Positions 10,301-52,395 of a stretch of DNA of 64,000 nt are shown here, piece by piece. Made by a program: the position numbers and the translations under genes. Position 1 is the first letter of the stretch. The number at the start of each line of letters is the position of its first letter. The notes beneath the pieces were generated by a model, which had not been told where the DNA came from, searched no databases, and worked only from the letters and a program-made list of their open reading frames with translations. The stretch lies in NCBI GenBank assembly GCA_037783545.1, contig JBBELK010000550.1:186001-250000 (forward strand). The letters run 5' to 3'. The DNA is from Henricia sp. BOLD:AAB3569 (Eukaryota > Echinodermata > Asteroidea > Spinulosida > Echinasteridae).

Positions 10301-13300
10301 GTAGTGTACATGTAACAGCAGTAGGGTTGTAGTGTACATGTAACAGCAGTAGGGTTGTAGTGTACATGTAACAGCAGAAGGGTAGTAGTGTACATGTAAC
10401 AGCAGTAGGGTAGTAGTGTACATGTAACAGCAGTAGGGTAGTAGTGTACATGTAACAGCAGTAGGGTTGCAGTGTACATGTAACAGCAGAAGGGTTGTAG
10501 TACGTGTACATCTAACAGCAGTAGGGTTGTAGTGTACATGTAACAGCAGTAGGGTAGTAGTGTACATGTACCAGCAGTAGGGTTGTAGTGTACATGTAAC
10601 AGCAGTAGGGTAGTAGTGTACATGTATTAAACAGCAGTAGGGTTGCAGTGTACATGTAACAGCAGTAGGGTTGTCAACATTCGTCAAGAGCAAGTCTCGA
10701 TTCAAATCCCAAGTCTTTGAGAGCATGTCTCGATTAAGTCCCAAGTCTTTGGGAGCAAGTCTCAATTCAAGTCCCAAGTCTTTAAGAGCAACCTTTTGTT
10801 CCCTTCGCGCAGGCGGCTAGTTGTAAACCTGTCAATCATCGACCAACCCAGCAAGTTGGAAACGGTTCCCTTCGAACCGGCACACGGTTTTCTATACAGA
10901 CCGTTTGTGACCTCGCGCCTTACTCACCTGGTAGAATTTTATCCACAGTAACTGTAATGGACTTGCTTCGATTGGTTTTCACCTGGGCCATCAACATAGA
11001 CGTCGCTAAAAACAAAAAAACATATATTTGAGCTAGTTTTCATTGTAGAAATGACATGTATACATGAAACAATTCGTGATTTATAATTCCGGCACCACCA
11101 AGAATTTTGAAGCGGAAAGGTTATTTTCGCTGTGTATCATGGAAAAAGTCAACATACAACTCATTCTCATGAAAAGGACACAGACGGAATTTTATTTTTC
11201 TTCGAAAAACATTGTTGAACATGTTTTAATAATCTGGGTTTCCTACATGTAAATAAACTTCAGCCTCTAAATGCATTATTTACATGTATTTCGGTCTTTC
11301 CACAGTAAAGGGGGCATTTGGCAACACAGACCATATTTTCGAGGAAATACCTTTGTCTGGTCTCAAAATAAAAAATAAAAATTTAAGTTGTTCTGAAGAG
11401 ATAACATAGGCCCAAAATGGATTACAAATAGTGTGACAACATGCCTTTCTAAAAACCCTGTGTACAAATTTCCAATATACACTTGTTACCGGGACGTACA
11501 CTTTAGGCAGTCCCGGTTAGGAGCGTATATTGGAAATCCTATTGCAGTTGAATCTGGATTATCTGGCCACACACAGTAAATTGCCTCAATGGATCAAGCC
11601 ACAGTGACATTTTATGAGAAGCTTAAAGAAGTTTAGGAAAAGCAGGAAAAGTGTGCACAAAAAGTTGATTTTTATTTTTTATTTTTTTTCAAAAGGGGGG
11701 GTGGGGGGGTTGGGCGGGGGGTTGGGCATGCGCTCCCCACGCACCCCTAGATCCGCCCTTGTAAACTTACTGTTTTTGATTGGAGTAAAACTTAAAGGTG
11801 TGCCTAAGCACTCGTGATCGGATGGCTGTACCACTACAACTACAAAGAAGTGTCCGGTGGGATAATTGCTTTTCTGAAAAAGAAAAAATATAAAAATAAA
11901 ACAAATTAAAAATTTAAAAACCTGCAAAAATAAAACAAATGAGAAAAAAAGCAGTAAAATTGTATCACAATATACTATTCCCCGCATTTTATTTCGTCAC
12001 ACAATGCTGGGTATATTTTGTAGTTGAATCTAAATCATTTAAGCGGAATGCGTATAAAATATCTGCGTAGTGCGTACACCCCACAATATCCTCACTTATT
12101 GTGAGAAGTATAATTTACCAACCTTAACTGTAATGGCCGCCTTTTTTGTCATTGTTTGAAACTGGCCCTCAAATTCCACATTACGATGCTGATCATATAC
12201 AGGGCACTGAAAAAATACAAAAACAAAATTCAATAAATAATGATAATGATAATGATATGGATTTATACCGCGCACTTATCCGGGGAAATCCCGATCAAGG
12301 CGCCTACATTATCATCACCCTGATCATAGGGCTCCATTAAATCACTCCATATACCATCTCAGCTCCCTGGGGAGTATACAGCCCTGGCTGCCTTAGGCGC
12401 TCAACGGCTAATAAGACCTACAATAAAGCAAATCTTTTTTGGTATTTGTTTTGAAATACAGTTAAATATTGATAATAAGAGCACTGTAAATACAACATTC
12501 TGCTTAAAACAAGGAAAATTTTAGGTCGAAAATCTTTGTTCTTCATTATTTTCATTCATGATTATACAAGGTTCCTGTTAAAACAAGGTAATCTGCAAAG
12601 TCTCAAGATTTAACTGTATTTTAAGCGTGTAAAGCCTAGCGTACATCGACATTGCAACTGGAAGCAACTAGTGGCAACTGGTGTTTCCGGCAACTAGAAG
12701 CAACTCGCGGCAACTGGGAGCAACTGATCAGTTGATTAAAAATGTTGATGTACGCGCACTTGCAACTACTGGCAACTGGAAAAATCTCAGTTGCAGCGAG
12801 TTGCTCATGTTCTACTTTCTGGCAACTAGTTGTACCCAGTTTTGTCGATGTACGCGTACTTGCAACTAGTTGCTGTCAGTTGCTCACGTGCATCTGATCA
12901 CGGGTGTGTGCATCAACAGCAACTGCAAGCAACAGTTGCTTCCAGTTGCAAGGTCAAAAGTGGTTGGTAGCTCGTCTCGGTAAATGGTATGCTTTCTTTG
13001 TCGACTTCAAAGATTCAGAAGTAGTAAGATCAAATATTTCGGGCACCATTTGATTAAGGCTTTTCCAGTCAAACGGCTGATTAAAATTTTGGGATATTTC
13101 AAATCTTGATTATATATAAATCTTGAATATATATACTGGCTTTATTAGTACATTTGTACCTTTGCAGGCTGTATCGACATCAGAGCACAACCATTTGATG
13201 GTGACGTCGCTTTAACAAGCATGACATCAATGTCTTCGGGAAAGGTATACAAGTAGTACTGTGAAGAAAACAGTATTTAACACATTTATATGCACATTTC

Positions 13301-16300
13301 GCAAAAGAAACTATTTCTGTCAAGAAAATGGTAGGACCTATCATTTTTTAGTTTAATTTTAATTAGGGTTTGTTTTGCCGTTTCCAGACGTAATTATTAA
13401 CACTGTATACTCGGTGCTTTCCCGAGACACTATGAAAAACTTGATAGCGCGCTCGGTGGGACTCGAACCAACGACCTCCTGCAAACAATGCAATCAGTGT
13501 TTTTTCCTCTCATCCCAAGTTTGGTTGTTTCATTTTTTTAATGGTGATCATCATACGAGACGTGCAATAGGATTGTACGTGGGTATTTCCACAGTAAAGG
13601 GGGCATTTTGGCAACACAGACCATATTTTCGAAGAAATAGCCCTACCTGTGTCTGGTCTCAAAATAAAATAAATAAGTTTCAGTTGTTCTGAAGAGATAA
13701 CTTGGGCCCAAAAAGGGTTACAAATAGTGTGACAACATGCCTTTCTAAAAACCCTGTGTACAAATTTCCAATACACTTGTGTTACGTCTTTAATAGGCCA
13801 TCCCGGTTACGAGCGTATATTGGATATTTGTACACAGGGTTTTTAGAAAGGCATGTTGTCACACTATTTGTAACCCTTTTTGGGCCTAAGTATTCTCTTC
13901 AGAACAACTGAAACTTACTTCTTTTATTTTGAGACCAGACAAAGGTATTTTCTGGAAAATATGGTCCGTGTTGCCAAAATGCCCCCTTTACTGTGGATAG
14001 ACACCTACAAAAAGATATAGTGCCCTGGCCACTGGCCGCGTTAGAAAGGGGCCCTGAAATCAAGGTTCTTTGTCCATATGATTGCGTACAAATTGACTTT
14101 CACCCAAACAAATGTGGCCACTTTAGGCAGGTGGCCAATATAGGAAGGTGGCCACTTTAGGCAGGTGGCCTTAATAGCAGGTTTTTATTGTATCTCATTT
14201 CTTATTCAGAATTTGACCAAAGTTATTTTATATACCTTCGGATTTGAAGGGCTTACGACAAACGTCCTTGGCACACTTGTTCTGTAATAAAAATGAAAAA
14301 ACATCAACCATATATTTTTTATTACACTACTTTTATTACACTAAGTTAGGGATATTGTGGGGTGTACGCACTACGCAAATATTTTATTGCTGGTATGCAT
14401 TCCGCTTGAATGATTTTGTATATGATTATACAATTGTATCTGCATGACAGACACACCTTGTCACAGAAATATGTGAAAACAGTCATTTGAAAAATTGTAA
14501 GAATTCCTGGAAAAATATTAGCAATATTGTGACTTTCGTAAAATGGCCCTGTCGCGTGTGAAACATTTTCTTGGGTAGCACGTGTGGTCTAATGTCATGC
14601 TCATGATTGTGGGGTTATGGGTTCAAGCCCCACTTGTGCCAACTGTTTATGACCGTGGGCGAGACACTTAATCTCAATTGACTTGTCAACCCAAGCGATA
14701 TATTGGAAGCTGTTAGGGGGAAGGCCACAATCTAACTGCTGATAGGGTTGTGCACCTTGGCCAGGCCAGCCACCTAGATGAAGGGAAATTGTTCTGGTGA
14801 TTTCCTGATGGCAGCAGTAATAATGGCAACAGCACCAGGAGTACCCTGTAGGGTAGACATGTGCGCTATACAAGTGTACACATACCTGAGCTTGAAGTTT
14901 TCAACGGTTGTTATCTTCAACGTAAAGTCCACTGATTTCTCTGAAGAAGTTGTGACGTCGATTGATATATTATGAGCTGTAGATGATGTTAGGCCATCCT
15001 CTGGACACAGTGTGTGACTCACTTCATTGTACTTGTACCTATTTAAATAATTGAAGAAAAAAAAATACAAATTTGAATACGTTATTATTCAAATATTGTA
15101 ATAAATATTATTCAAATATTGTAATAAATATTATTCAAATATTGTAATAAATATTATTCAAATATTGTAATAAATATTATTCAAATATTGTAATAAATAT
15201 TATTCAAATATTGTAATAAATATTATTCAAATATTGTAATAAATATTATTCAAATATTGTAATAAATATTATTCAAATATTGTAATAATTGTCATTAAAC
15301 TGGCTTGCAGGTGCCATAAGCTACATGATTTGGCCCCAAAAAAATGCAGCTTGTGTTTTCCAAGTCGATGTAATTTATAGTTTATACGAAGTTTTATAGA
15401 CCAAAGCTCTGTATTATTTTGCCTGCCGTTAAAGATAGTATACATGGTTGGTAAACTGTTACAAATAGTTTTATCCCCCCGTGTCATTGAAGATATGCAT
15501 GATTAAAACCAACCTGAGCAAACACCAGCTCTGTACTTCATTTAACTTTTGAGAAAACAGTCAAAAAAGGATTTGCAGTCATTTCACCCCAAAACCACTT
15601 CGCCCTGAACCACGGCCTGTGCACGAAGTGGTTTTGGGCGAAGTAATGTGGGGCGAAATGGCACTCAAGCGAAGTGGTTTGGGGCGAAATGGCACTTGGG
15701 CGAAATGGTTTGGGGCGATTCGAATTTTCGTCTCATGAGACGGAAACTAATTGTTTTACTCATTTCTCAAAGACTATAGCACTTCAGACAAAACATTTCA
15801 AGGGAAGTTTTTTACGGTCATCATGTTTATATTGTGTAAGTTAGGCGTAAATCTGTGAACATTTCTGATTTTCGAGATTACCAATGATGTAAACTGCCTT
15901 TAAAACTAGAGGGCGTGTTGGATGTAAACAAGTGACGTCACGGATCACCGGACCCTGTCTATACTTACATTGACTGTATAACATATGGAAGTGCCCACGA
16001 GAGAACACTTTTTTGTTGTCTGACAACAAATAAGAGGGGATAGTCGCCGTTTGCATCATGGCTTATTGTTTTCACACGAATGCTCGTAGACTATAAAGTA
16101 GAAAGAAAAGAAATTCATTAATCGATTCGATAAGAATCAACGATAAAGCATCAGTAAGTGCACATTTGATAGAAAAACACTAATTTAGGATTTGGAAAAA
16201 TAAAGTCATATGGGATACCGTGTGGTTTAGGTCACCGAAGGGGGTTAAAATGTTAAGGGGCTAAAAGTGTTATATAGAAAATGATAACGTCCCAATATAA

Positions 16301-20911: not shown

Positions 20912-23900
20912 CTATTAACCAAACAGCGTATATACACATATAACCAGTAATCCTCCAGAGTCATTATAACTCCACCAAATAGACCAGTTGCGTGATAGAT
21001 TTGCATAAGTCTTGGAGTCACGCCTTATATTTACATAAATACTAGCAGTAGCAGAAAACAGTAGCAGAAAAGTTGTACTAACTTTAAGGCTATTTCACGC
21101 CCGCGGCGTGCTTAAGCATGCGTGCGTTTGGAAACCGCCATTGTTGCGTCACTATCTTAAGCAAAATTTGGCTCTGCGGTTAAGGCAAGTTTTCAGTTGC
21201 TTACCGTTAACGATGTCTATGAAATAGCCTGACCGCGCTCGGTTATGGGCCAGTCACAAATCAGTTGCGATGCGTCGGCGATGGGTAAAACCGGGAAATT
21301 TGAACAAAATCTTGAGACAGATCTCACGATTTTGCACCCGTCGGAGGCGCTCTCCGGACGCCTGCGGCTTGTCGCAGATTTTTTTGGCATCGCCACACCC
21401 GTCGCGGTCCCCAACTTTGAACTTAAAATTTTAAGATTGCTCGCAAGATTTTTCACCCATTTTGGGCATCCCAGACACAATCTCTGATGACCTACGATGC
21501 CCTCCGATTAATCGGAGGCGTCCTCCGAATAATCTGAGACTAGTCGCAAGATTCTGTGTGGGATTGGAAATTCAGGTTGAGATTCAATGTCTGCGAGTGG
21601 TCTCCGGCGCCCTCCGACTGAATCGGAGGCGCCCTGCGACGATTCGTACGCTTTCTGTGATCGTCTCCGACGAATCGTACGGTGGAATCGTAGTAAATCG
21701 CCGTGTATATAAGGGCGCCTCCGATCGGATCGCTAAAAGTTTGAGACGCTCTTGGAAATTAAAAGAAAAGATGCTCGCAGATATCGTCTCCGATGCAATC
21801 GGAGGCGATCGGAGGCTAATCCCACTATTTTTTGACAAAACCGGGTCAAAATCCTTGAAAAAATCTCAGACAATGTAACTGCTCCACTTTTATTAGGATT
21901 ATTGCTAGGATTGTTCAAGGCTTCTTTATTTTCTACGACGACCCCCCGCCAAAACTAATCCCCGACAGATCGCCGACATTGTGACTGGGCCATTAATGGA
22001 AAATGGGCTGTTAAACAGCTCTATGAGATTGGGCCCTGGTGTAAATATACTACATGTATATAACAAAAAACAATTCCCAAAATGTTACTTTGTATCGCGT
22101 TTTCTGCAGTAACTGACATATACATGTAAAAAGGCATATGTAATGAGTTTGCTATAAGAACTCACCAGATACACCTTTTGTTAGCTTTTAAGCGCTACTA
22201 TATTAGGCTACTTGTTATTTAGAAGTTAACACGGCTGATCTACCATCAGATACACCTTGTAACATACCGCAGAAAACACGAAAAAATTTAAAGGCCCAAA
22301 AAAGACTCAAAAGGTATAGGCCTACATGTGCTCGAAAAATGTATATTAATATTTACCTCTTCATCAAAAAGACACTGCGTCACAAAGAAGAGTACGCCCT
22401 GTTTCAAAATAACAAAAAATAAATAAATGAAATCTTCAATATTACAAAATAGCGAAGGTTCTCGTAAATGAAAATGGCCTTGTGATTTAATATAGACTGT
22501 ATCGAATAGCCGCCATTTCGTGGGGCAGTTTCTTTGTTCCTTGAGGACATGCATGGTTACACATAGGCTACTGTGCTTCCATTGTTGAACGGATTAAGTA
22601 ACAAAAGGTGCCCCCACGAAATGGCGGCTATTCGATACGGTCTACAACAGAATGCTAAAAGTAGAATTATCGGCAGAGCATTTTGGACAGTTTTTCAGTG
22701 CCATGCGAAGATATATTGGAAAGGTCTCGGCTATTCACCACTTGCACGGTCGCGATCAAAACGAGGCTTTTCTGGCGTACGTCATATTTTAAAATAGACA
22801 AAAGTCAACGTCACAGCAACCGACATGGTAACGACGCGAGGGAGTCATTGCTCATGCAAGAAAAGCCTCGCTGTTTTGCCAAAATGGCGGTATACCGTGC
22901 AAGTGGTGAATATCACTGGTGTACTCCATAAAACCATCTAGCATGTGGAAAATTCCGGAAATTCAAATTTACACTTTAGAGACGGAGGGCTTGTTATGCT
23001 TCACGTATTAAAGTTGTTTGATTTTAAACACATGTTCTTCAAGTATATCATTGATGGAAGTGTAATTTTACTTTAAAAAAATTATTGTAATGCCATTCTC
23101 AATATGCGTGATATGGTACATCCAAAAATATCTCGGTTTCGGACGTACTCATTGGGTACGTCCGAAACCGAGGGTTTTGGGGACCCTATACACACTTACT
23201 TAGAATGGCAATGCAATCACCTTTTCAGGAATTACACTTCCATCAATGATGCTTGAAGAAAATGTGTTTAAAATCAAACAACTTGAATACGTGAAGCATT
23301 ACAAGCCCTCAAAGTCTCTGGAGTGTAAATTTGAATTTCCGGAATTGTTCATGTGTTGCTTAAATTAGGCATATTATTTCACCTGAGTGGAGTTACAGAT
23401 GACAAAAACATATGCGAAAAATATTGTCTTGGGGTTGAAGTAGAGTAGACCCAGAAGCCACGGAATGCCAAGAAGAGGCTCCAGTATTAGAACGAGGCGA
23501 AGACCAGACCTAAAACAAAATAATTTGAACTAAATTAATACGCCTCTTTCTTTAACAAACCATGTGAATGTAGCTATACGAAAAAGGAGGCCATGTCACT
23601 ATGAGCAACTAACAATGGAAATTGGGCACAAACTATTGTTATTAACAATGGTGTGCCAAATGTCCATTGTTAGTTGTTCATAGTGTGTACAATGCATAGC
23701 GTGTACTGAATAGAATGGGTTAACGTAGCGGTGCACTGAGCAATAATTCATGCATCATAATGGGGGCAGATTGTTTTGTACACAAACATAATAATGGGAG
23801 CCTGCCAGAAAATCTTGGTTTGCCCTGGAAAAGTTTGGTCAAGCTTTCACCATGCCTAAAAGATCGATGCATGCACCATGTTTTCATCCTCTTGCAACAG

Positions 23901-26900
23901 TGCCCCTTTAACGCACTCCCTAACTCCTGCGTACAGTGGCCCTGTTGAAAAAGGCCCCATTTCGCGGTGGGACTAGCGACAGAAATCTTGTCGCCTCTGC
24001 TGGACCAATCAGGACGCTTGTTAGTGCATTGCAGCATGATTGCAGGCATTCAAATGTAACGCGCGCAGATTGTAAACACCGTGCATGCATGTGATACATG
24101 TACTCGGTAATGCTGGCCGTTGTCCGCGTCGACGATTGGCTGCTATTTAAAGCATACTGGGGAATCCGTTCCATTACATTCGTCAGCATGCATCCCTGTT
24201 ATTAATTTGAAAAACTGCGGAGTAAATTAAGATTGTCGTTCGAAAGTTTGGTAGGAATGGGACAGTCATGAGGAACGGAACCCAATACAATTTCTGGAAA
24301 GTATAGAAATCGTTTCTTTTCGGCATAACATGACCGAATTGATTAAATTACATCAAAATGACTCGGGCGTGAGTTGGCTCAAGACAACAGCCGGCTCACT
24401 CCACAGATTTGCGTGTGTTTCCTCAGGGTATTGTTACGTCGCTTTGCAGAGTGGAAATTCCCTGATATCTCAGGATGCATGTTTTTGGCTCTGTCGGGAA
24501 GGGGAACTAAACTTGTGGAGTTTGACCCCAAAAAATTGCCGAAAAACGTAGAGTAATTAAAAACAAAATAAAAAGGCATTATGCATGATTGATATTAATT
24601 GTTGTTCATTTTAAAAATTGGTGGGTTTCAAAAATAAAAAAATAGAAGCAGGTACCATTGTACTGTTTATGCCCACAGGCTTCAAGGAAAAACGTCAAAG
24701 CGCTGCTTGTTTATCACAAAACAGCCGTCGTCACAGTGTAGCTTTTTTTAAATTCCAAATTGTACATGAAACAATTATATTAACTTGGTCTGTACACAAT
24801 CAGCAGCCGATTTCACGAAACAGTACGTAACGTGCGCCATATAAATTAACGGTTATGCACACAACTTATGCCGTAAAATTATGGCGTAGCTATTTCTGCG
24901 CAACATTAAGTTTTCCACTTTAGCACTTTTAATTCCTAGGACGAGGTTGATTCCAAGTTTTATCAACGACTATTTAAAGTTTACATTTTGAACATGCATA
25001 AAACGTACGTCATTGTTTTCCCATGTTACGCGCGGTGTCATTCACGGCGCGCGTCGGTTTGTCATCGCTCACTCACTGCACTCACTATGTCGCAGATTTC
25101 ACTGAAAAAGCCGTTATACTGTTTTAATACTGTATTTAAGCCCATGGTAATTAATCATAATCTGAGGTTCACATTGGGAAATGAGATTTGTTCCAATTCA
25201 CAAATTACGCCACATAGGCCTATGGCTCTTATACAAGGCGTCGAGTTATACGCTATCTAAATATGGCTACTAACTTTCGTGAAACACAGTATCTTGGCAT
25301 AAGTTGACTCTCGCCCGGCACTTCAAGTTTCGTAAAATTGGCTACATGTTCACCGTTAGCTATTTAAAAAACTCACTTCATTTTGTCCATCTCCGATTTC
25401 TTCTTATTGGCCCGCAATGACATGAAGATGTAGATCAGTCGAATCAGTATTGCAGTGTTTATCTGAAAACACGAGTAAAATGATTTTTTCTTCTTTCCAT
25501 TGACTGATGAAGACTCACAGACTAGCAGTCTAAACATTCTGGTCCAAATTTTTGACCACACCGAGAGACAACAGAATAACTATGTATTTTGTTTTTCCCC
25601 TGACAGCTATCTACAAGACGAATAGCCTGTTTTAAAGCCCTGCTTTATGTGATTGTTATTAAATACTTCTTCGGGAGGGGGAGGGGGAGGGGGAGGGGGG
25701 AGGGGGAGGGGGAGGGGGAGGGGGAGGGGGAGGGGGAGGGGGAGGGGGAGGGGGAGGGGGAGGGGGAGGGGGAGGGGGAGGGGGAGGGGGAGGGGGAGGG
25801 GGAGGGGGAGGGGGAGGGGGAGGGGGAGGATGTGAGGGGCTTGCAACCCTTCCCTCGAGGGGCCCGGGGGGACCAAACTATTAATGAAGAAATAAATATT
25901 GCATTAGAAAACCGCCCCCCCCCCCCCTCCCCCCCACCCCCAAACCCCCTCCCCCACCCCCAACCTCCCCCCCAAACCCCCAGCAGGGCGTGGTTTCGGC
26001 ACACAGTAGTAGTCACAACCCCACTCTTAACCAAAAGCCAGATCCGCCCCTGGATATTGAAAAAACAATTAATTAAAACTTTAGCAGCTGAAAAGCTAGA
26101 ATAAAACTAGAATATTGGTAAACTAGCATGCATAAATTATATAGCTATAGATGCAGCAATGCTTCAGAAAAACAATTAAAATCCAATAAATAAATGTCAA
26201 AAATGGGAATGCACGCTTATTTTAAACAAACAAATCACCTTCACTCGTTAATTTTCTGCAGAAAAGTATAGCATTTTGGACAGAAAAGAATTCACGTGGT
26301 GATTGCTATTACTATCAAAATGTTGATCAAAGTCAACTTGTCAACTAATGAAGAAAAAATGGGTCACTGCAAACGATATACATTGGACCAAATGAAAACT
26401 AACATGTTTTTAAATAAGAAACAACACCTTCAAACAATTTGGACATCATCGGGAAAATATAACCTTTACGACTTAATGAACCTGAAACTTCTATAAATCG
26501 GCAAAAGTATAAAGGAAAGAGGTTGTGATTTGCTATAGCCTTGATGGGCGTTTTCGCTTTCGTTTTCGGGGGAATTTTCCTTTTTTTCCCCCGACTTGGC
26601 GCTATACTTACGAGAATGATTACAATCACGGGTGTCAAAAACGCCCAAACAAATCCGTCAGCGTAAGACAGCCAACAGCTAGAGGGAAAGTTTAAAAGAA
26701 AGAACTACAGTAAACAGCCGTAGAACACAACAAGTTTGTCCTCGTCCAAAAACTACAAATGTCCCTCAAGTGAACGAAAAATCGAACGCATCGCCCTTAA
26801 TGGGTTTGATGAAACTTCGTAAGCACGCAACGTAAATAGTTGCGATTGATCGTAGCGCTATAATCTATCGCAATATCCACCATGAAATCCACCATGATGT

Positions 26901-29900
26901 TACATGTTATTTTGTACATGTATGTCAGCACGATTCAGAGGTACTTGTACATAATATTAAAGGTCTTTACAATTGTGTAGCATATGAAATAATCTACCTG
27001 AGAAACATTTACCATGTTAACGCGGTGCATATGCTTTTCATGGGAAAAACCATGACTCGGGCATAATATAATAGTCAATATAAATCAATTAAATGTCTTT
27101 TTAGTGAAACCAGTACCCGTGGAATAATCAAACCTGCGACAATACATGTAGGCCTACTCTTTGTGCAAATACAGTGGATCACTAAATACATGTATATCAT
27201 ACGAGGAAGTGTTGTTGCGTGATCAACCTCGTTGTTTCGCCAACATGGCGACTTCGTGCAAGAAGGGAAAATAAAATAAAATAAAATAGAATAAAATAAA
27301 AAAATAATAATGTACAGACGTAGTTTCTTACTTTGGGTTGCTCCTGTATCCGTCGACGTTGGCAGCCAATGATATCACGACAATAAATACTGGAAAACCT
27401 TCATCCAATGAAACAAGAACAAAGCTTTATTTTAATTGAAAAGGTAATAATTTTAATTTCATAAAAAAACTCAAGAGAAAAAACTATCACTTGCACTTCA
27501 TGTAAGAATTAGTGGGCAAAAATGATGAAGATTACCATTGCGGGAAAATAATTTGTAAAGAATTTGACCAAAAACAAAATTTGCGTTACGAAAAAATTGC
27601 AGCGGACAGCACGATCTTATATGCATAATCGTCGTGCGGGCTATAGCCAGCTGTTTGCGTCGCGCATACAAGCTTTCGATTATACCAAAAACACCTGTTC
27701 ACGACCATTGTGTCCGCCTGGACCATTGTGTCCGCAGATGGTTTTTCGGACACAGTGGTGCGGACATAATGAGTTTTCGGACACAATAGTGCGGACATAA
27801 TGGGATTTCGGACACAATGGTACAGATATAATGGTTTTTAGGACACAATGGTGCGGACATAATGGTTTTTCGGACACAATGGTGCGGACATAATGGTTCA
27901 AGGGGACACAATGGTGTGGACACAATGGTCCAAGCGGACATAATAGTGAGGACATAATGGTTCCAGCGGACACAATAGTGCGGACATAATGGGATTTCGG
28001 ACACAATGGTACAGATATAATGGTTTTTAGGACACAATGGTGCGGACATAATGGTTTTTCGGACACAATGGTGCGGACATAATGGTTCAAGCGGACACAA
28101 TGGTCCAAGCGGACATAATGGTTCAAGCGGACACAATGGTCCAAGCGGACATAATGGTTTTTAGGACACAATGGTGCGGACATAATGGGATTTCGGACAC
28201 AATGGTACAGATATAATGGTTTTTAGGACACAATGGTGCGGACATAATGGTTTTTCGGACACAATGGTGCGGACATAATGGTCCAAGCGGACATAATGGT
28301 GAGGACATAATGGTTCCAGCGGACACAATGGTGAGGACATAATGGTTCAAGCGGACATAATGGTGAGGACATAATGGTTCCAGCGGACACAATGGTGAGG
28401 ACATAATGGTCCAAGCGGACATAATGGTGAGGACATAATGGTTCCAGCGGACACAATGGTGCGGACATAATGGTTCCAGCGGACACAATGGTGAGGACAT
28501 AATGGTCCAAGCGGACATAATGGTGCGGACATAATGGTTCCAGCGGACACAATGGTGCGGACACAATGGTTCCAGCGGACACAATGGTGCGGACATAATG
28601 GTTCAAGGGGACACAATGGTGTGGACACAATGGTCCAAGCGGACATAATGGTGAGGACATAATGGTTCCAGCGGACACAATGGTGTGGACACAATGGTTC
28701 CAGCGGACACAATGGTGAGGACATAATGGTTCCAGCGGACACAATGGTGTGGACACAATGGTTCCAGCGGACACAATGGTGAGGACATAATGGTGAGGAC
28801 ATAATGGTTCCAGCGGACACAATGGTGAGGACATAATGGTTCCAGCGGACACAATGGTGCGGACATAATGGGCCCAAACCATCTGCGGACACAATTGTCC
28901 AAGCGGACACAATGGTGAGGACATAATGGTTCCAGCGGACACAATGGTGCGGACATAATGGTTCAAGGGGACACAATGGTGCGGACATAATGGTTCAAGC
29001 GGACACAATGGTGCGGACATAATGGTGAGGACATAATGGTTCCAGCGGACACAATGGTGCGGACATAATGGGCCCAAACCATCTGCGGACACAATTGTCC
29101 AAGCGGACACAATGGTTCTGAACAGACGCCCTAGCTCACCCCAGCCTACAGCAAACCACACAAACATCCGAATTTTCCGCTGGAAAGTTGGCGTTGACTT
29201 GATCAGCAGGAAGACGCCTTCTAGCGCCATCCATGTGAAAGCAGCAAGCAAGAAGTAATGCAGAATTATGGCTACCGCCGAACAGCCATCCTGTAAACGT
29301 AGCATGACAAAATAATTACATGGTATTACATTTTTGATAACCGAAGTGTTGTCTATTTTTTTTAAAATGGACGTTACTTCTGTATTTCGTTTTGCGCTAT
29401 TTGTACACGGGTATTTCCATAAAAACAGGAGCCAAGTGTGACATTTTGATGCATTTGTAAAAATGCCTTTTAAAGTTAAAACTGTTTAAAGAAATTTCTG
29501 TGCAATTTCTAAATAATGTAGAATATTTAAAATAATTCACAAACGGTTAAACATGTCTTGGTAGCATAGTCTTAAAAATATTCAAGAAAATTATTTCACG
29601 ACGTAATGGGGGACTCCAAGGCATTTTTCAACTCTTGCGATTACATTTCAAGTCTTTTTGACCAGTTTCTTTCTGGAAAAAGGTATAGTTGCTGATTTTA
29701 CCCAGCTTTAGAACCCTTGACTTTATCAATTCAAATTACATTATGAGCTCATTTTGTTCCATTTTGAGCGAAAGTTTCAAAATGTGACACTTGCATTTAG
29801 AAGATAGCACTAGTTTATTGAATCGTTCTCGTTACGTTTTGGGTATTATCAACACATAAAGGAGTTGTTCGATTCACGAGGTCATATATTCTTTATATGC

Positions 29901-32900
29901 CGAGGGTAATCGTTCTCTGAAGTCCGGTAATTATATTTAAAAAAACATCAAGTGTCACGACGTAAGGGGGACACTGTGTCCCGTTTTCATGGAATGACCC
30001 ATCGTTTTAGAGCTGTGTATAGGTTTAGCTGGACGGTTATTTATATACCACATCCAACAGCGGAGGGACCGCCAATTACAGGAAGGGGAGCAAGTGTGGT
30101 TGACGGTGCCTTGCTCGAGGGCACAGGTGCCACAACCCGTCACGGCCAGGAATCGAACCTACATTCTAGTACTATAGCACAGGAACTTAAGTTCGACGCA
30201 CTATACCGCTCAGCCATAACACCCCACAAAATTCAGTTAATTAACTTTTTTCCTTGGCTTTAGCAATGGACATATCAAATTACCAGCGAAGGTTTAGATC
30301 CAGTTACCCCAGTAACCTACGTCACACCTTAGTAGTCTATACTGGGTACTGAAAGCGAGTCTCTCTAGTTAATTGTCCAAAATTATTTGGACAAATAATA
30401 ACCGTGTTGTGTTACGAACAAAAGAGGGGAAGATGGAGCAGTCCATTGTCAATGTAGGTCTATGTCAGCCATAAATAGTGTGCGACCTTTCCCATCAACA
30501 GTTTGCATTTTACACAAATTATTCAGGAGACACGACTAGACTCCCATTACACGTACCGTAAATAAAGTTTATTGTAAAACTACAAGGGTGTGTTCGTTTA
30601 GCTTGCCCAGGTCGCCCAAAGTCAGCCCCACGCCATGACATTATACTCCCGTGTTCGAGTAGCCTAGCTAGTACTGGTGTTTCGCCCAAAAGCACTCACA
30701 GCGACCAGGGGGAAGCTAAGAGAACGCACCATAACAATCAATCTTTTACACTTACGTCAACTGCATAACCCGTAAAGAGGAATACCAGGTGACTTGCCAT
30801 TAATGCGAATGCCAAGTTTGCATGAATCACAGTCCGCAGGCTTCTCATTCTAAATATTGGACACAAACATAGCAATGCAAACAAGGTGTGTTTTCTTTTC
30901 GCGATCATAACTACAAACATGTTTCTGTCGTAATTCAACCAATGAACGGTTTCAGTTGTGGACGACCAAAACTGACCATTGGTTAAATATGGTATTGTGT
31001 CAAAACTTGATTCTGGTTGTGATGGCGAAAACAGGCCCCATGCAAAGGTGGAAGTAGAATGTTTAAAAAAAGAAAGGTCTAAAATACTTCGACAATCTCT
31101 GTTGTGTTCCTTAGTTGTACATTTTCTTGACATGCAAAGACTTTTTTAAATAGGTGTATTCTGCCCGGATTAAACAAACAATTAGGTGATCGGGCTGTTT
31201 CCGATCACCTATTACTATTGTACGATTTCTTTGTCTTTTTTAGGTGATCGGAACCCATTCCGATCACCTATTACTATTGTACGATTTCTTTGTCTTTTTT
31301 TTAGGTGATCGGGCTGATCCCGATCACCTATTGATATTGTACGATTTCTTTGTCTTTTTTTTGGCTTTTTCGCTTTGAGCGAAAAAGCCTTTGTTTTCGT
31401 TCTGATTTTTTGTTTTCTGCACAGTTTGCACAGTCTGCACAGTTTGCACAGTTTGCACAGTTTGCACAGTTTGCACAGTTTGCACAGTTTGCACAGTTTG
31501 CACAGTTTGCACAGTCTGCACAGTCTGCACAGTCTGCACAGTCTGCACAGTTTGCACAGTCTGCACAGTCTGCACAGTCTGCACAGTTTGCACAGTTTGC
31601 ACAGTTTGCACAGTTTGCACAGTTTGCACAGTGTGCACAGTTTGCACAGTTAAAAAAAGAAAGGTCTAAAATACTTCGACAATCTCTGTTGTGTTCCTCA
31701 GTTGTACATTTTCTTGACATGCAAAGACTTTTTTTAAATAGGTGTATTCTGCCCGGATTAAACAAACAATTAGGTGATCGGGCTGTTTCCGATCACCTAT
31801 TACTATTGTACGATTTCTTTGTCTTTTTTAGGTGATGGGAACTCATTCCGATCACCTATTACTATTGTACGATTTATTTGTCTTTTTTTTAGGTGATCGG
31901 GCTGATCCCGATCACCTATTGATATTGTACGATTTATTTGTCTTTTTTTTTGGCTTTTTCGCTTTGAGCGAAAAAGCCTTTATTTTCGTTCTGATTTTTT
32001 GTTTTCTGCACAGTTTGCACAGTCTGCACAGTTTGCACAGTCTGCACAGTTTGCACAGTTTGCACAGTTTGCACAGTTTGCACAGTTAAAAAAAGAAAGG
32101 TCTAAAATACTTCGACAATCTCTGTTGTGTTCCTTAGTTGTACATTTTCTTGACATGCAAAGACTTTTTTTAAATAGGTGTATTCTGCCCGGATTAAACA
32201 AACAATTAGGTGATCGGGCTGTTTCCGATCACCTATTACTATTGTACGATTTCTTTGTCTTTTTTAGGTGATCGGAACTCATTCCGATCACCTAATACTA
32301 TTGTACGATTTCTTTGTCTTTTTTTAGGTGATCGGGCTGATCCCGATCACCTATTGATATTGTACGATTTCTTTGTCTTTTTTTTGGCTTTTTCGCTTTG
32401 AGCGAAAAAGCCTTTGTTTTCGTTCTGATTTTTTGTTTTCTGCACAGTCTGCACAGTCTGCACAGTCTGCACAGTCTGCACAGTCTGCACAGTCTGCACA
32501 GTCTGCACAGTCTGCACAGTCTGCACAGTCTGCACAGTCTGCACAGTCTGCACAGTCTGCACAGTCTGCACAGTCTGCACAGTCTGCACAGTCTGCACAG
32601 TCTGCACAGTCTGCACAGTCTGCACAGTCTGCACAGTCTGCACAGTCTGCACAGTCTGCACAGTCTGCACAGTCTGCACAGTCTGCACAGTCTGCACAGT
32701 CTGCACAGTCTGCACAGTCTGCACAGTCTGCACAGTCTGCACAGTCTGCACAGTCTGCACAGTCTGCACAGTCTGCACAGTCTGCACAGTCTGCACAGTC
32801 TGCACAGTCTGCACAGTCTGAACAGTTTGCACAGTTATCAATTCTTACTCTCAGATTGACTGGTTTTTTTTCATCAAAAGGTGCGGGAAAAATGTGCGTT

Positions 32901-35900
32901 TATTTTGTTGCTAGGTATAGAAATGCTAAAAACGAGAAATATATGCCGTATAACTTCACAGGGCCGTATACACAATTCATGCAGAAGGTAATTTGAACGC
33001 AGCCTTTCTTACCGACAGACAGCATACGCTAGAAGTGTTACTGCGAGGCACACGATGGACAAAGTTAGACCAATCTTGGTCAGTATTTCTAGAGCAAGTT
33101 TGTCAGTTTCACCCAATGGTATCTGTCGAGATAAAACACAAAATAGATACGTTTTCGACACACGGCCCTAGTATCACAAGTTTATTGTAGCCCAATGTTG
33201 TCAACATACCATTATCACCACTGAGCCCAAATGTATAAAACTTAAAGGGCCATGAAATGGTATTTTTACCGATGAAATTTATGCTCTGGAACTGCTCCAT
33301 TCATTTACAATTATAAAAAAGTTGGAGTTGTTTTAGGGGTTAAAATACATTTTAGGGGTTAATTTACATATTGAGCGAGGTTGTGATGTCACATTAGGCA
33401 AACACAGGAAAATCTCATTCAACTGTGCACAAAAGATTTCAGTATTTTCTCCAACTTGCTGAAACCTTTATAACCCATGACTGTTTGGGTTTGTTTTACA
33501 TCTTGTACGCTGTAAGCCATGTGAAAACCAAGGTTGGAAACTGCAGCAATTTTCCATAATTTCAGTTTGATGTTTTTTCTTTGCTTTTCTGCTTTGTGTT
33601 CCTAAAGTGACATGCCCCAAAAAGCGCCCCTTTTCTGTGAGTTTCTGTAAAGACATTTTCAAAAATGTCACCTTTTATTCATGGGGCATCAAAATGAACG
33701 GTGGTATTGTCTTTCTAAACAAGTAATCCTTCATGTGCGTATAAAGTTCCCCACCATTTCAGGCCCTTTAAGCGAAATTTGTGCTGAGCATACCACGATA
33801 ATTTGCTTCAGCATGCACCATTTACGGTTACGCTTAGCAAATTGGTAAAACGCACAAGTTAAAAATTGGACCCAGCACCCAATTTCACGAAGCGCTACCA
33901 TACGTCGTATTAGTCGTGGCTTAATTTGCGATGTCACACACGTCGCAACTTGTGAGATGCAGGCGACGCCGAAGATAATATTTTGCTATCTTTGCGCGTT
34001 GTTCTCGACGGCCATTTGCTTGTAATAAATACATAAAACAGTCGTAAAATAGGCTCGTACAACAACTTTATTTACGCTATTAAATCTCCAAATTAACGCA
34101 TTGCCCTTGCGGCTGTTTCATGGAATGGCTCACAAGACGCGTTGCACACAACGGTGACGTGTCCGTCGTATAATCGCATCGCGTCCTAACTTTCATGAAA
34201 TCGGGTACAAGTCCCGGAATTCAGGTTGATATTTTGCAGAAACCATTAAAATTTTCATCCACGTGATTAAAGTCTGTTGGCATACCTCGTCAGTCTGAAA
34301 CAGTATAGCGAAATGGGTGAGATGGTTGCAGCTACACTGCACATCTGTTGCGGTTTGGAATTGGATAGTACATCCGCTGGTCGACCAAACACTGCGAGAA
34401 AACAAAAACGATTGCCCATTTTGAAATGCATTATCATAAAAACCGACTTCGAAGTTCGTAGGAAGGTCACTATACCAGGAATATAGTTCTACAACACTCA
34501 TTAGATTTACCTCAATGGGAATTTTGAAGTGCCTGACTGATTGGATTTACTATTTAGGCCTCTATGTTTTTTTTCACTCTTACTTAATTTTAAGCTAATT
34601 TTTAGTCAAATCAAATATCTGGTGGATTATATAATATTTTATACGATTAATGTTAGTAGCAAAATAAATAAATTGAATTGGAAAAAAATACTGATTAAAG
34701 ACGCAGGATAGTCAATACAACACGAACAAATTCGTGCTCCATACCTTGCCCGAGTAGGGCAGCTTCGCTTACAATCCCAGAGGATGGAGGCTTATTATTT
34801 TTAAGCGAGCCTCTCCACTGTTTATCGTTGCTAGGCTAATCGAATCACGCGCGCGCTGGGTTGTGTGTTGTATCGCTTGTACCAAAGAGTTCCCATATAC
34901 GGTCAATTCATATCTGTAATGTAATGTGATTATGTGAATATAGTTAAAACTAAATGTCATGAATTTACAAAGGGTGTGTTTTCTGTGATAAATATTTGAT
35001 TTCGAAAAGATACACACCCTATTTGCAGAATGGACGAGGCTTTTAGCCTGCACAATGACCCGTAAGAGCGGCTGCCAGGGCAAGGTATAGAGCGCGGTGA
35101 AATTCGTGGCACGAATTTGTCTGTCCCGCATTGACGAGCCCCCGTCTTTAAGATTTTTAAAAGAGGACAACTTTGAGTTATTCACTTACTCCGTTTCCTG
35201 ATCCAAAAAGCTGCATATTGGTTCCAAAATTTCGGGGTCGTGCTGAAAGGACACCGTCAAAATAGAAAGGTCAAATATATTTCACACACCTCCGCCCCAA
35301 CTGCACGTAAACATAATGGAAGTAAAACGTGAGCGTGAACCAGTGACCATAGCAACGGTCCTGTGACCCCGATGTGACGTCAGGACTCTGCCAGCGAATT
35401 GGTGATTTTGAGAAAACTGCTTTTATCTTTGGGAGAGTGTAAAATATATCTGTTGAATAGTAGATAAAACATTCCATTTTTTTAAAACTCACCGAATCGA
35501 TCGGGAAATCAAGTAGCACCGGCTCCTCTGTGAATTGTTCAAAAGGATGTCCGTTTTCGTCAGTGGCATCAACGTCTAGAATGTCGCTCCCGAATCCATA
35601 AATCTGTTTGCCTTTCAGAAGCTCCCTCAGATCGGGCGTCCGCAGCCATCGGTTTATTTTTCGCAAGCTCACCGTTACTTGGTACAGACAAAAGAAAACG
35701 CTAACATCTATTTTGTTTACTTGACCCAGTATGTTTTTATTTATTTCATATATAGTTTTATGGGACTTCATCTCGCAGCCTGTTACAGCTTAATTGCGTG
35801 AACATAAAGTGTCTCCCACCTAATCAGTGGGTGGCGCCATTGGCAGCCGACATCCACATAATTATCTTACTATACTCCACGAAGAAGTGTTCTGGGATTG

Positions 35901-41900: not shown

Positions 41901-44900
41901 CTGTAGGCAATGGCGAGCACCACGTAGAAACAACAGCATGTGACTGTCTAAACCGCACCTCCATTTAAAAGTGAGAATTTCGAGGCGCCAGCCATTATGA
42001 AAATGTTACACGCAAAAGACTTTTTTTTTTCTTCAACAAATTAATTTTGTAGTGAGTAGAACTGTAATGACATACGATAATAACGAACTCAATTGACACG
42101 TACAATTCCCAAGTAGCGCCGGTCACAAAAGCTATGGCATATGGGTCTGTCCACAGTAATGGGGTACATTTCTGTAACATTCAAGATCTTAGGTCCCAGT
42201 TCACTTCAAATTTCTTAATTTTATCTTTAAATTATCAAGCTAAACTAAGCAAATAACTTTTTCACCAAGGAGTAAGAAAAATAGTCCTACAACATACATT
42301 TGTGAAAACCCCGTGCACAAATTTTCCTATTACGCATGTAACAAAGACGGAAAAAAATGTCACAAAAGTGTCTGTCCACGTTACATACGTAATAGGAAAA
42401 TTTGTACACAAGCTTTTCAAAAATGTATGTTGTGCCAGCAATTTCTTAACTTTTTGGGCAAAAGTTATCTCCTGAGAACAAAACAAGGACATTTCTTTAA
42501 TTCTGAGATAAACTAAAGACATCTGAAAGGAATTATTGACTTATTTTTCAAATGTACCCCATTACTGTGGACAGACCCACATACATTTTCCTAAACTACC
42601 TTTTACAAAATAGTGTGGCGTCAGTTGCCGTGGTACTTTGGTCTAAACATTCGCTGGTAATCTGAAACGCCCATTGGTAATGTGCAGGGAAACAGTCCAC
42701 TGGTTTTGGTGACGTAGACTCAGTAACCTTGGCAACACAAATTCTCGAAGACTTTTGCGTTTTGCGTCGACCATAATGTCATAACATATGAAGCGGGTAA
42801 TTTATAATTTAATTGTACTGTTAATATGTTCCACGGCTCATTAAACCATGAGCCAGCCTTGGCAATTTAAACAAATTATTATAAATAAATGAGACACACC
42901 TATCACGCAAATGTGCTGCCAGCGTCGTTTTGTGGTTTCAAGGCTTAAACTGAACCTAATTAATGCACTTGAATTGGGCATATACATTGCATGCATGCGG
43001 TAATGAATGGTATTGTCTATTCTCTTCAACGTGTCATTGTACTATACTACGTGTAAAAAAAACACACACAAAAAACATGTCCTACTTTTTATCTTGAATA
43101 ACTTTATATTTTTTTTTCAATTTTGCTGCCAGTGTCGTTTTGTGGTTTCAAAGTTTGACTTAAACCTATTGCACTTTTATCCTTTAAGGACAAAGTTTTT
43201 GGAAGGCAATAGAAACAGCTCTGAGAACAATCAAAGTGTTATGTCAATCTGGTTTGAGCAGCTTTAATTCAACGCAATTCACACCACTAGCGATATATCA
43301 AGCAAATATGATTCCTTTATCAGCTATTAGTTTCCGGCCGCAGCGGACCCGCGAAACTTTGCAACAATTAAGCAAAATAATTAAGCATGCAACAATATTT
43401 ATCAGCTATTAGTTTTCCGGCCGCAGCGGGCACGCGAAACTTTGCAACAATTAAGCAAAATAATTAAGCATGAATAATTATTTATCAGGTATTAGTTTCC
43501 AGGCGCAGCGGGCACGCGAAACTTTGCAACAATTTTAAGCAAAACCAAACAATACAATAAATAAATCATATACAAAGTCGTGTATGATGTCCATTATTTG
43601 CGCAATCGTAAACAATAACAGCAAAATATACTAAGTGATAAAACTACACAAGGAATCAGGCGTCAATTAAATAAAGATAAAAAGCAAAGGTCAGAATTCC
43701 CTTAAGAGATCCACCCTGGTGAAAGGGGGACCGGGAAGGCGGTGGGCGTTTTCTAGAAGACCGAGCAAAGTGATGTTGAACGCTAGCTGCTCAAACGAAA
43801 GTGAAGAATGCTTCATCAGGGCCGATCCCTTCGCCCCCAAATTCGAATGATATTAATGACTTTAATTAATCAAACTTCACACCACCATCGACAAAAGCCA
43901 GGCCCCCAGACTTGCTAGCGCCAGGATCCAAACTAATGGAATGGTATATTGTCTATTCTCTTCAACGTGTCATTGTACTATACTACGTGTCAAAAAAACA
44001 CACACAAAAAACATGTCCTACTTTTTATCTTGAATAACTTTATATTTTTTTTTCAATTTTGCTGCCAGTGTCGTTTTGTGGTTTCAAAGTTTGACTTAAA
44101 CCTATTGCACTTTTATCCTTTAAGGACAAAGTTTTTGGAAGGCAATAGAAACAGCTCTGAGAACAATCAAAGTGTTATGTCAATCTGGTTTGAGCAGCTT
44201 TAATTCAACGCAATTCACACCACTAGCGATATATCAAGCAAATATGATTCCTTTATCAGCTATTAGTTTCCGGCCGCAGCGGACCCGCGAAACTTTGCAA
44301 CAATTAAGCAAAATAATTAAGCATGCAACAATATTTATCAGCTATTAGTTTTCCGGCCGCAGCGGGCACGCGAAACTTTGCAACAATTAAGCAAAATAAT
44401 TAAGCATGAATAATTATTTATCAGGTATTAGTTTCCAGGCGCAGCGGGCACGCGAAACTTTGCAACAATTTTAAGCAAAACCAAACAATACAATAAATAA
44501 ATCATATACAAAGTCGTGTATGATGTCCATTATTTGCGCAATCGTAAACAATAACAGCAAAATATACTAAGTGATAAAACTACACAAGGAATCAGGCGTC
44601 AATTAAATAAAGATAAAAAGCAAAGGTCAGAATTCCCTTAAGAGATCCACCCTGGTGAAAGGGGGACCGGGAAGGCGGTGGGCGTTTTCTAGAAGACCGA
44701 GCAAAGTGATGTTGAACGCTAGCTGCTCAAACGAAAGTGAAGAATGCTTCATCAGGGCCGATCCCTTCGCCCCCAAATTCGAATGATATTAATGACTTTA
44801 ATTAATCAAACTTCACACCACCATCGACAAAAGCCAGGCCCCCAGACTTGCTAGCGCCAGGATCCAAACTAATGGAATGGTATATTGTCTATTCTCTTCA

Positions 44901-47900
44901 ACGTGTCATTGTACTATATATACTACGCGTAAGTTATCTTGAATAACTTTATTATTTTTTAACGGATTTAAACCAAAATTTAACATCATGTAAACAAGGC
45001 CCGACAAATTTCCCTGAGTGAGTTTCATCAGTTTTGTCAAAGAGGTTGAGATTTAAACGCCATACGGAAAAAACCCTAAATTTGAGAATTTGCTACTTTC
45101 GACTTGGCATCCGCCATTGTCAAGAAAATTGTTTCTGTCCGAGGTCCCTTTGTACCTCTTGATAAATAGACCGATCCAGTAAGCTCCGCCCATTCAGAAA
45201 TTGCCTAGCAACATACCACACCTGTGAGACACGTGTGCAGTAGAGTCGCGTGGCCGTGCCGTGCGTCAGCGTCAGCGCTCTGGTTAGCGCGTATTGAAAC
45301 ACGCACACGCACACAGAAACTGCACGCTCGAAAGCAAAATGTGCACTTAAGACGGTATCCGGTCGTGTGCGTGCACGTACAACACGCCTGCAATACGCGT
45401 AACGCGCGCGGTCGAACAAAAACATTTCGACACACATCTAGAACGCAGTGAATGCACAACAAAGCAAAACGACAAGCTAATTTTTGTGAGTTTTTCCGTT
45501 AAAACAAAAACACATTTATGAAGGGATTAAAAGTAGGTTAGGATAGTCTTATACAATCCGTTTTAAACTGGCTAGGGTCCTCTTCGCTGATAAAAATGAT
45601 GTTTATGGTGTTTTTGTGTCACTCGTGCTGCATTTCGCCGTAGCTAGCTCTGTGCACAAAATTTGAGGACTCAGGTAACCAAAATGGACATCCACATTTT
45701 GGTTACCTCAACCTGAGGCTGTGATTGGTCAATTCCAAAATGGGCGGAGCTTACTGGATCGGTCTATTGCGGGAAATGATCGAGATGGTTTGCCTGACAT
45801 TTGGAGTGATGCCGCCTTTTCTCAGAAGCTTTCGGCTCAGCACACACATCGTCTCCTGCGACGTATTGACATTGAAAAAACCCAAGTTCAAGTCGAAAGG
45901 AGCGAAATCTGAAATTGACACCTTCTCGTGAAATCGGCTGCATGTCATGCATTTCAATCAAGTATCAGGTCTCGCCAGTTAGAACAAATGGTCATCTAAC
46001 CACTGAGACCTTTTAAATCAAGTATCATGTCTCGCCATGCAGTTAGATCAAGTGGTCATCTAACCACCGAGACCTGGGCATGTATTTAAATCAGGTATCA
46101 GGTCTAGCTAGTTAGAACACATGGTCATCTAAGTAAGTTGTTCCCTGATAAACTCATGCTGTACAAATGTAGGTCATACGCTGCCGAAGGCAATGGCTCT
46201 ACACTACAAACCACTGAACTGTGTCCCTGTGCTTTTGCAATGGTACTTTTTCCCGACGGCCATGATGTTTAGAGCCAATTGCCGTGGCAACACGTCACAC
46301 TTGGGCTGTCTATTGAAAATGATACGCTTGGCGCAATCAGTATAAAAACGTTGACACCCGCGAAGTTCAGAAATTGCACTTTTTGCCCCATGACTTTTAT
46401 TTGAATAAATATCTCATTTGACAAGCCACAATTATTTTCAAGGTAGGAACCGACCCTTAGCGTACACTTACAATAGGTACACGTACCATCTAACTAGACC
46501 GCACTAATTAAATCGATATTTTCAATGAAGTGTAAGCCTACTAGCCAAGAAGTAATGTCCCTGGTCAAAACTGACCTTATTAGAAATTTCAAGGGATAAT
46601 TATTTAAGGCAATTCGTAGCGGCCTTACTCCAAATCGATTTTCCCACTGTAGGGCAAAATGTCAGAAGTTTCACGAATTACTATAGTAGATAAAGAAAAT
46701 ACAAACATTAAATGTTGTCACTTGATGTAGTTACTGAACGATTTGCTGATTGGTGGATCTTATACAATCGCTAATTAACCCGTTGAACCCTAAATGTCAC
46801 ATTTGTGACTTCCCTGTGAACAAGGAATAACCCGATGAGCCACTATTGTGGGTTTTAAGTGACGTCTTCATAACCGGTGTCATTGTGCATAAATAATTTA
46901 TGGTTCAAAGGGTTAAAGGAGTGTGACCAGATCACTTTTTTTTACCCATAACTCCCCGGGACTTACCTTATGGGTCAAGAGATTTTTATATCGTAACATC
47001 CGTTATATTTTTCTGATTACGAAACTGAAACTCCCGCGCTTCTAGGCCGCATATTTCCGAGGATATCGTCGAAAATCCACCGATTATTTGTAAACTAATT
47101 TTCCAGTATCAACGTTTATCCGCTGAAAGCATACTCGATAGTTTTGTTAAATTTTTTACTGGAAATTGCGAATGTTTTCGGATTTTTGGGACATGGGAGG
47201 TGTGTATGGGAGTTACTTGATAATATTGGTAAGTTACATCGAAAACTATTTTCCAGAAACTCTGGTCACGCTCCTTTAAGGTTAGTCCTGTATAATTTCC
47301 AATATTTTAATATTCGATTACTCGGTTTTATTTTTCGAATACTCGTATTGGATACACGACATGAGTAGCGTGGTAGAGTTAACTAAACTCTCTCGTGCTT
47401 GTCCTCCAGGAGGAAGCAAATAATTATTCATCAGCGTTTCAGCACGCGCGCAAAATTAGCTTTTTGCGTGTAACATTCGCATAATGGCTAGCGCCTCGAA
47501 TTCTTCACTTTCAAAAGGAGGTGCATGCAGTTTAGAAAGTCACACACTACGCTGTTGTTGCTACGTGGTGCATGCCATTGCCTTGTAACCAACAGTCTGG
47601 TTGCTTTATACCATTCTCTCATACGGTGAACACGGTATTGGTTCTGTACTTCACAGTCATGTGGATACTGGTCACAGGACATTGGTTTTAACGTTTAATC
47701 TTTTTTACATATGTACATGTACATGTATATACTGGTCAAGTGTTTATGTGGCGAAGGAAGTATACGTCAGTATACATGACGCTATATATGTTAAACGTGC
47801 ACTGAGGCTAATCTATGCTATACAATAAAAAAAAAAATTTCGCCCAGCATTCTTATTTACTGGTAAATGCCATTATTATGTACCATCGCACGCGTAACTA

Positions 47901-51798: not shown

Positions 51799-51920
51799 AA
51801 AAATCTTCAGTTGCTAATAACATCTTGGTAAACAGTACACTGTATAAATTGACTCATGCACGTGGTTCTACCAAGCTCATGCATCTGAAGTGTTGCGCTG
51901 TGCAATACATACGCCTCATG

Positions 51921-52395
51921 TTGAGGCAAGTGTCACCTCATCATGTTGAGGCGAGTGTCACCTCATCATGTTGAGGCGAGTGTCACCTCATCATGTTGAG
52001 GCGAGTGTCACCTCATCATGTTGAGGCGAGTGTCACCTCATCATGTTGAGGCGAGTGTCACCTCATCATGTTGAGGCGAGTGTCACCTCATGTTGAGGCG
52101 AGCGTCACCTCATGTTGAGGCGAGCGTCACCCCATGTTGAGGCGAGCATCACCTCATGTTGAGGCGAGCGTCACCTCATCATGTTGAGGCGAGCGTCACC
52201 TCATCATGTCGAGGCGAGCGTCACCTCATCATGTCGAGGCGAGCGTCACCTCATCATATCGAGGCGAGCGTCACCTCATCATGTCGAGGCGAGTGTCACC
52301 TCATGTTGAGGCGAGTGTCACCTCATGTTGAGGCGAGCGTCACCTCATGTTGAGGCGAGCGTCACCTCATGTTGAGGCGAGCGTCACCTCAAGTG
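51921..52395. repeat. 25/22-bp minisatellite (CCTCATCATGTTGAGGCGAG)
   Basis: About 20 copies. The number of CATCATG/CATG triplets varies and one part has TGTCGAGG for TGTTGAGG. CCTCA/TGAGG makes each unit a small hairpin. It sits in the GPCR-Ly6 divergent intergenic space, 0.8 kb upstream of the GPCR TATA box. Confidence 0.95.

Follow-up and report, generated by a model that had tools for sequence, protein, structure and literature searches.

A composite repeat of hairpins and a 9-bp minisatellite in three tandem units within a predicted adhesion-GPCR intron

What kind of repeat carries hairpins that share a stem and differ in their loops, closes each of its units with a minisatellite and stands three times over in a single intron? 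Here we describe such a locus in a 64-kb window, by which we mean the whole stretch of Henricia sp. DNA that was analysed. It is probably a nested (composite) tandem repeat that grew at three scales inside an intron of an adhesion-GPCR gene, by slippage and unequal exchange. We infer that these two processes were the mechanism, and that the repeat is spacer DNA in the intron without a product or function of its own.

The repeat (31063–32834, followed by TTA) consists of three direct units, arranged head to tail, which start at 31063, 31650 and 32086 and are 587, 436 and 749 bp in length. Each unit comprises a core of 354, 356 and 354 bp, respectively (31063–31416, 31650–32005 and 32086–32439 on the plus strand, the last base of each being the first T of its array), and a 9-bp array. 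Within the core, 120 bp without strong structure are followed by three monomers of 59–60 bp, a fourth hairpin (H4) and a T-rich tail. Each monomer is a hairpin followed by the spacer TATTACTATTGTACGATTTCTTTGTC, or nearly so, and a T-run; the word TTGTACGATTT is present in all nine hairpin monomers. In unit 1, all on the plus strand, H1 (31183–31211) has an 11-bp stem, TAGGTGATCGG, and the loop GCTGTTT; H2 (31241–31270) has a 13-bp stem and the loop CCCA inside AACCCATT; H3 (31302–31330) has a 12-bp stem and the loop CTGAT inside GCTGATC; and H4 (31363–31389) has a 12-bp stem, GGCTTTTTCGCT, and a loop of 3 bases. This anatomy, with its same-stem, different-loop hairpins, fourth hairpin and 9-bp array in each of three units, had been described in an earlier, sequence-only reading of the window, and we recovered it almost letter for letter. 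Some details had to be amended. In units 2 and 3 the loop of H2 reads AACTCATT, and the stem of H2 has one pair broken by a C to G change in unit 2 (31829–31858) and is 14 bp in length in unit 3 (32264–32295). The spacer that was said to follow every hairpin is mostly the same, except that in unit 2 GATTTA replaces GATTTC after both H2 and H3.

The three 9-bp arrays, also on the plus strand, differ in length and make-up. Array 1 (31416–31649) is mixed, with 26 monomers of which 16 are TTTGCACAG, 9 are TCTGCACAG and 1 is TGTGCACAG; array 2 (32005–32085) has 9 monomers (6 TTTGCACAG and 3 TCTGCACAG); and array 3 (32439–32834) has 44, of which 42 are TCTGCACAG, with a single TCTGAACAG and a single TTTGCACAG.

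The hairpins are no accident. Perfect stems of at least 11 bp (with loops of 3–10 bases) occur 13 times in the 64-kb window, and 11 of these lie within the repeat, where two stem types recur in copies, so that the 11 are not independent events; the twelfth hairpin of the repeat, H2 of unit 2, is the one with a broken pair. Among 200 control sequences of 64 kb each, generated by a first-order Markov model with the composition of the window, 168 had no such stem, 30 had one and 2 had two (mean of 0.17), and a smaller run gave none in 5 of 5 sequences. Folding as DNA gave z = −10.6 for the core, and folding of H1–H2 as RNA gave z = −9.3 against shuffles, whereas the 120 bases 5′ of H1 in unit 1 fold as RNA no better than shuffles (z = +1.0). 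We also considered whether the block 5′ of H1 is a decayed 59-mer; this was rejected, as the best local score of 18 was matched by 226 of 2,000 shuffles. Outside the repeat, only two perfect palindromes of the same definition are present in the window, at 23132–23172 (17-bp stem) and 45673–45708 (14-bp stem).

The repeat lies wholly inside one GT–AG intron of a minus-strand adhesion-GPCR gene, as judged from splice sites predicted from sequence alone. The intron (30850–33012; 2163 bp) lies between the exons for TM1 and TM2, with its GT and AG borders supported by the exon reading, and the repeat with its trailing TTA (31063–32837; 1775 bp) makes up 82% of it. The TM1 exon (33013–33123 as far as read) has its 3′ border at the GT donor (33012), and the TM2 exon (30767–30849 as far as read) has its 5′ border after the AG at 30850. 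When joined (...LALEILTKIGLTLSIVCLAVTLLAYAVCR/MRSLRTVIHANLAFALMASHLVFLFTG), the two exons form one open frame that matches 7tm_2 (E=8e-8). The host gene also includes an open reading frame (ORF) with a GPS motif (34193–34546, minus strand; Pfam GPS, E=1.9e-11), and a further minus-strand ORF stretch (29131–29485), which matches profile positions 72–126 of 7tm_2 (Pfam, E=9.6e-11), is taken as its putative next transmembrane part.

Comparison of the units shows the order in which the repeat grew. Across 356 alignment columns, the cores of units 1 and 2 differ at 8, those of units 1 and 3 at 4 and those of units 2 and 3 at 8, which corresponds to a likeness of 97.8–98.9% by column; the changes fall in 7 substitution and 3 indel columns, and private changes are present in each of the three units. 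In a first step, a hairpin monomer of 59–60 bp would have been tripled, after which the loops would have diverged or been replaced. Unequal exchange would then have tripled the entire block of four hairpins with its 9-bp minisatellite, the 9-bp arrays offering a natural substrate for such exchange. Because H1, H2 and H3 each match their counterparts across the units, the tripling of the hairpins preceded that of the units. In a third step, slippage would go on altering the lengths of the 9-bp arrays, with unit 3 as the latest case; as array 3 is nearly uniform, it was either the last to grow or was cleared of variants. The proposal that the expansion is recent is supported by the likeness of the cores and by the 42 identical monomers out of 44 in array 3. 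The same C to A change in neighbouring spacers of unit 2 fits what local exchange between 59-mers might be expected to leave. The founder may perhaps have been a HINE-like element. In direct and closely alike units, and in arrays that vary in length (26, 9 and 44 monomers), the locus has the features by which a composite minisatellite is recognized.

A second composite tandem repeat is present at 43001–43982 and 43934–44918, with a unit of around 933 bp that is 99.6% alike between copies and includes 2.8 copies of an 83-bp repeat in each. Large minisatellites with units of at least 15 bp occupy 150–1328, 3272–3763, 10275–10674, 27738–29116 (just downstream of the 7tm_2 stretch) and 51916–52391; together with the second composite repeat, these indicate that expansions of this sort are frequent here. 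Other features of the window are dispersed. An interspersed family (2406–2930 on the plus strand, 15429–15903 and 59004–59412 on the minus strand), about 85–87% alike, carries a minisatellite of TTCGCCC words of around 16 bp and thus represents a dispersed element with a minisatellite of its own. A pair of dispersed repeats (23885–24477 and 62724–63325) is 88% alike over about 600 bp. A plus-strand ORF at 48649–48978 matches Pfam ALKBH8_N (E=1.7e-12) and may, from its sequence, be a non-LTR reverse transcriptase tail, and two cysteine-bearing plus-strand ORFs (57541–57888 and 60135–60431) have a weak likeness to Quiver Ly-6/u-PAR (E=0.096 and 0.0014, respectively) that falls below the curated cut-off.

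Next in standing to composite growth, and in our judgement unlikely, is the explanation that the repeat is a tandem multimer of a non-autonomous Helentron/HINE-type rolling-circle element, which would have inserted once at TT, with its end signal bypassed and the 9-bp array at or near its 3′ end. TT is found at both outer sides and at the inner junctions (GAATGTTTAA; GCACAGTTAA twice; GCACAGTTATCA), and the compared flank stretches share no direct match of more than 3 bp and show no evident target duplication. An inserted element would likewise be consistent with the sharp outer TT borders and with a first unit of full length, and a site without the array is predicted to read GTAGAATGT-TTATCAATTC, or close to it. 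Slight further support comes from a 5′ inverted repeat, TTAAAAAAAG/CTTTTTTTAA, that is 10 bp in length in units 2 and 3 (6 and 4 of 500 shuffles gave one as long); its counterpart in unit 1 has 8 bp (a length reached in 62 of 500 shuffles). H4 is separated from the array by 26 bases, or lies 35 bases from the end if a single monomer is kept, and HINE palindromes are placed around 8–35 bp from the 3′ end in passages of PMC4067079, which also report tandem arrays of Helitrons that arose by bypass of the end. Tandem repeats are likewise found inside oyster HINEs, according to an excerpt of PMC7492417.

Several observations stand against this explanation. As the units are, the array lies beyond the palindrome, with 260, 107 and 422 bases from H4 to the unit end. 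Helentron families are defined by subterminal inverted repeats of at least 11 identical bp in the passages of PMC4067079 that treat them, and no such repeat of at least 11 bp was found, in the core alone or with the array included. The longest inverted matches between the first 30 and the last 130 bases of the core are A-rich, at 9, 9 and 10 bp, lengths that were also reached in 230, 193 and 107 of 500 shuffles; with the final 130 bases of whole units the matches are 3, 6 and 3 bp, and between the first 30 bases and the 9-bp array the match is 3 bp. No further copy of the core was detected in the 64-kb window (blastn, E 1e-6, stretches of at least 60 bp), from which the 9-base arm and the spacer word are otherwise absent, and Pfam found no Rep/helicase in 10 of the 127 listed ORFs. 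Canonical Helitrons have 5′ TC and 3′ CTRR ends and insert between A and T. Read by eye, the ends here are TTAAAAAAAG ... CACAG before TTA; they are not of the canonical kind. The likeness to Helentron/HINE-type elements that was raised in the earlier reading holds in outline (TT flanks, a palindrome in the 3′ part and tandem repeats) and fails at the subterminal inverted repeats. Because of this failure, and because the search for dispersed copies covered the 64-kb window alone, the repeat is not filed as a HINE.

Growth as a composite minisatellite sits less easily with the loops. The differing loops on conserved stems had been read as a sign that pairing is maintained, which the three units do not bear out. 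One of the seven substitution columns lies in a stem (the C to G change in H2 of unit 2), where it sets G opposite G and breaks the pair, and one that borders the H2 stem in unit 3 (T to A) adds an extra pair; none of the seven is compensatory, a count that has little power with three units only. Stems take up 96 of the 356 columns, and one substitution in seven is what chance would place there (P=0.40), so that stems are not depleted of change. Within unit 1, the stems of the three same-stem hairpins carry no change. Between H1 and H2, 5 of 8 loop positions are changed compared with 0 of 46 in stem plus spacer (P=1.8e-5); the figures are 5 of 8 and 2 of 46 between H2 and H3 (P=3.3e-4), and 2 of 7 and 2 of 46 between H1 and H3 (P=0.08). 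The spacer pairs with nothing in the hairpin, yet it is about as conserved as the stems (between H1 and H3, 2 of 24 unpaired spacer positions are changed compared with 0 of 22 in the stem; P=0.49), and pairing is for this reason not singled out as the conserved feature. The odd part is the loops, the change of which alongside constant stems and spacers is left unexplained by plain tandem duplication; the loop contrast in unit 1, significant for two of the three hairpin pairs, counts against plain growth. We tried an inverted H1 loop as the source of the H2 loop and rejected it, as 4 edits are needed in the inverted compared with 5 in the forward orientation and 25% of random pairs do equally well. 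A mobile or self-copying hairpin cassette, with a constant stem and spacer and an exchanged loop, would be the nuclear equivalent of the repetitive hairpin-forming elements (RHE) found in sponge mitochondria, with three tandem cassettes in each minisatellite-carrying unit. We consider such a cassette improbable.

Less probable still is selection on the hairpins for a role in the receptor pre-mRNA, for example in splicing or intron structure. The minus strand, which carries the host gene in its coding orientation, also folds strongly (z = −10.1), and the constancy of the stems in unit 1 would agree with such a role; however, folding of either strand is inherent in any palindrome, no change is compensatory and the sole stem change between units breaks a pair. 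Quasipalindrome correction, in which one arm of a palindrome is copied from the other, would keep stems perfect without selection. We attach equally little weight to the idea that assembly created part of the triple unit, for instance by placing two alleles one after the other. No more than 4 columns distinguish units 1 and 3, and long 9-bp arrays are hard to assemble, but unit 2 has changes of its own and no two arrays agree in length and make-up.

Least probable of all is a small RNA gene, in which the TATA-like word TTTAAATA (at 83–90 of the core of unit 1, 30 bases 5′ of H1 and one mismatch from TATAWAWR) would drive transcription by Pol III, beginning close to H1 and terminating at the T-runs (in unit 1, runs of 6, 8 and 8 follow the successive monomers), and for which H1 with its spacer folds better than shuffles (z = −5.6), given that among the best words listed an equal TATA score recurs in the core (one more on the plus strand and three on the minus strand) and H2 and H3 have no TATA-like word of their own on the plus strand, that a B-box is absent (the best match has 3 of 11 positions wrong), that an A-box is found only with two mismatches and that stems of 11–14 bp are short for known Dicer substrates.

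Searches of RNA families gave no match at the gathering score in the whole 64-kb window, and a tRNA scan found none. With E values of up to 5 accepted, 21 weak Rfam matches were obtained in the 30–34-kb region, of which 3 fall in the flank and 18 in the repeat, where they are confined to the minus strand and lie over either the 9-bp arrays or H4 and its surroundings. The best is mir-1912 on an array, at a nominal E of 0.00068 and 29.2 bits compared with a gathering score of 72. A microRNA and a histone 3′ end were rejected as identities, as all 21 matches fall below their gathering scores (the histone stem-loop reached at best 20.5 of 34 bits). Phage and plasmid records, which are silent on animals, gave no match to the core in distant mode with E values of up to 1, and the hairpin pattern occurs 0 times in prokaryote genomes, which are equally silent on animals. 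An 18-mer of the spacer was found in 2 IMG/VR contigs; only that word is common to them, with a single further 13-mer in one, and we take it as chance. The hairpin GGTGATCGG..CCGATCACC was found in 24 IMG/VR contigs, once in each; none has the spacer word, 5 of the 24 have isolated core 13-mers, and we take these as chance palindromes.

Taken as it is, the locus is a further intronic composite minisatellite. Should there be dispersed copies, its sharp ends and the contrast between stems and loops would make it a good case for the joining of hairpins, minisatellites and rolling-circle elements, and for weighing perfect palindromes that are kept by selection against those kept by arm-to-arm copying. 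The sequence words of the repeat, and those of the other minisatellites of the window, have no match in the open-licence literature, which is not proof that they are unpublished.

Three known systems invite comparison. HINE / DINE-1 elements, for example Cg_HINE of the Pacific oyster, resemble this repeat in outline, with TT at the borders, no target duplication that is evident from the flank stretches compared here, a 3′ palindrome and the carriage of tandem repeats and a microsatellite (as described in parts of PMC4067079 and PMC7492417). The repeat is unlike them in lacking 11-bp subterminal inverted repeats, in having its array after the palindrome and in comprising three whole units in tandem. 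The ‘mirages’ of amphioxus are likewise tandem-repeat expansions in animal genes with unstable lengths, and the sections of PMC3087553 that concern them describe intron-linked minisatellites that change in length; mirages, as depicted there, span exon–intron borders, whereas the present array is wholly intronic and nested in its order. The sponge mitochondrial RHE are short hairpins, often in tandem, with conserved stems and differing loops, and include ‘blue15’, ‘yellow18’ and triple-hairpin regions; in the portions of PMC2800124 that deal with these, its authors left open whether recent spread or pressure on structure is responsible. RHE are mitochondrial and dispersed there, as far as those portions go, whereas the present hairpins lie in a nuclear intron, at one locus in the 64-kb window, with a spacer that is about as conserved as the stem. 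The RHE trait of stems that are more conserved than loops is found in unit 1, at P<0.001 for two of the three hairpin pairs and P=0.08 for the third, and RHE are the nearest precedent for the same stem with different loops, in tandem.
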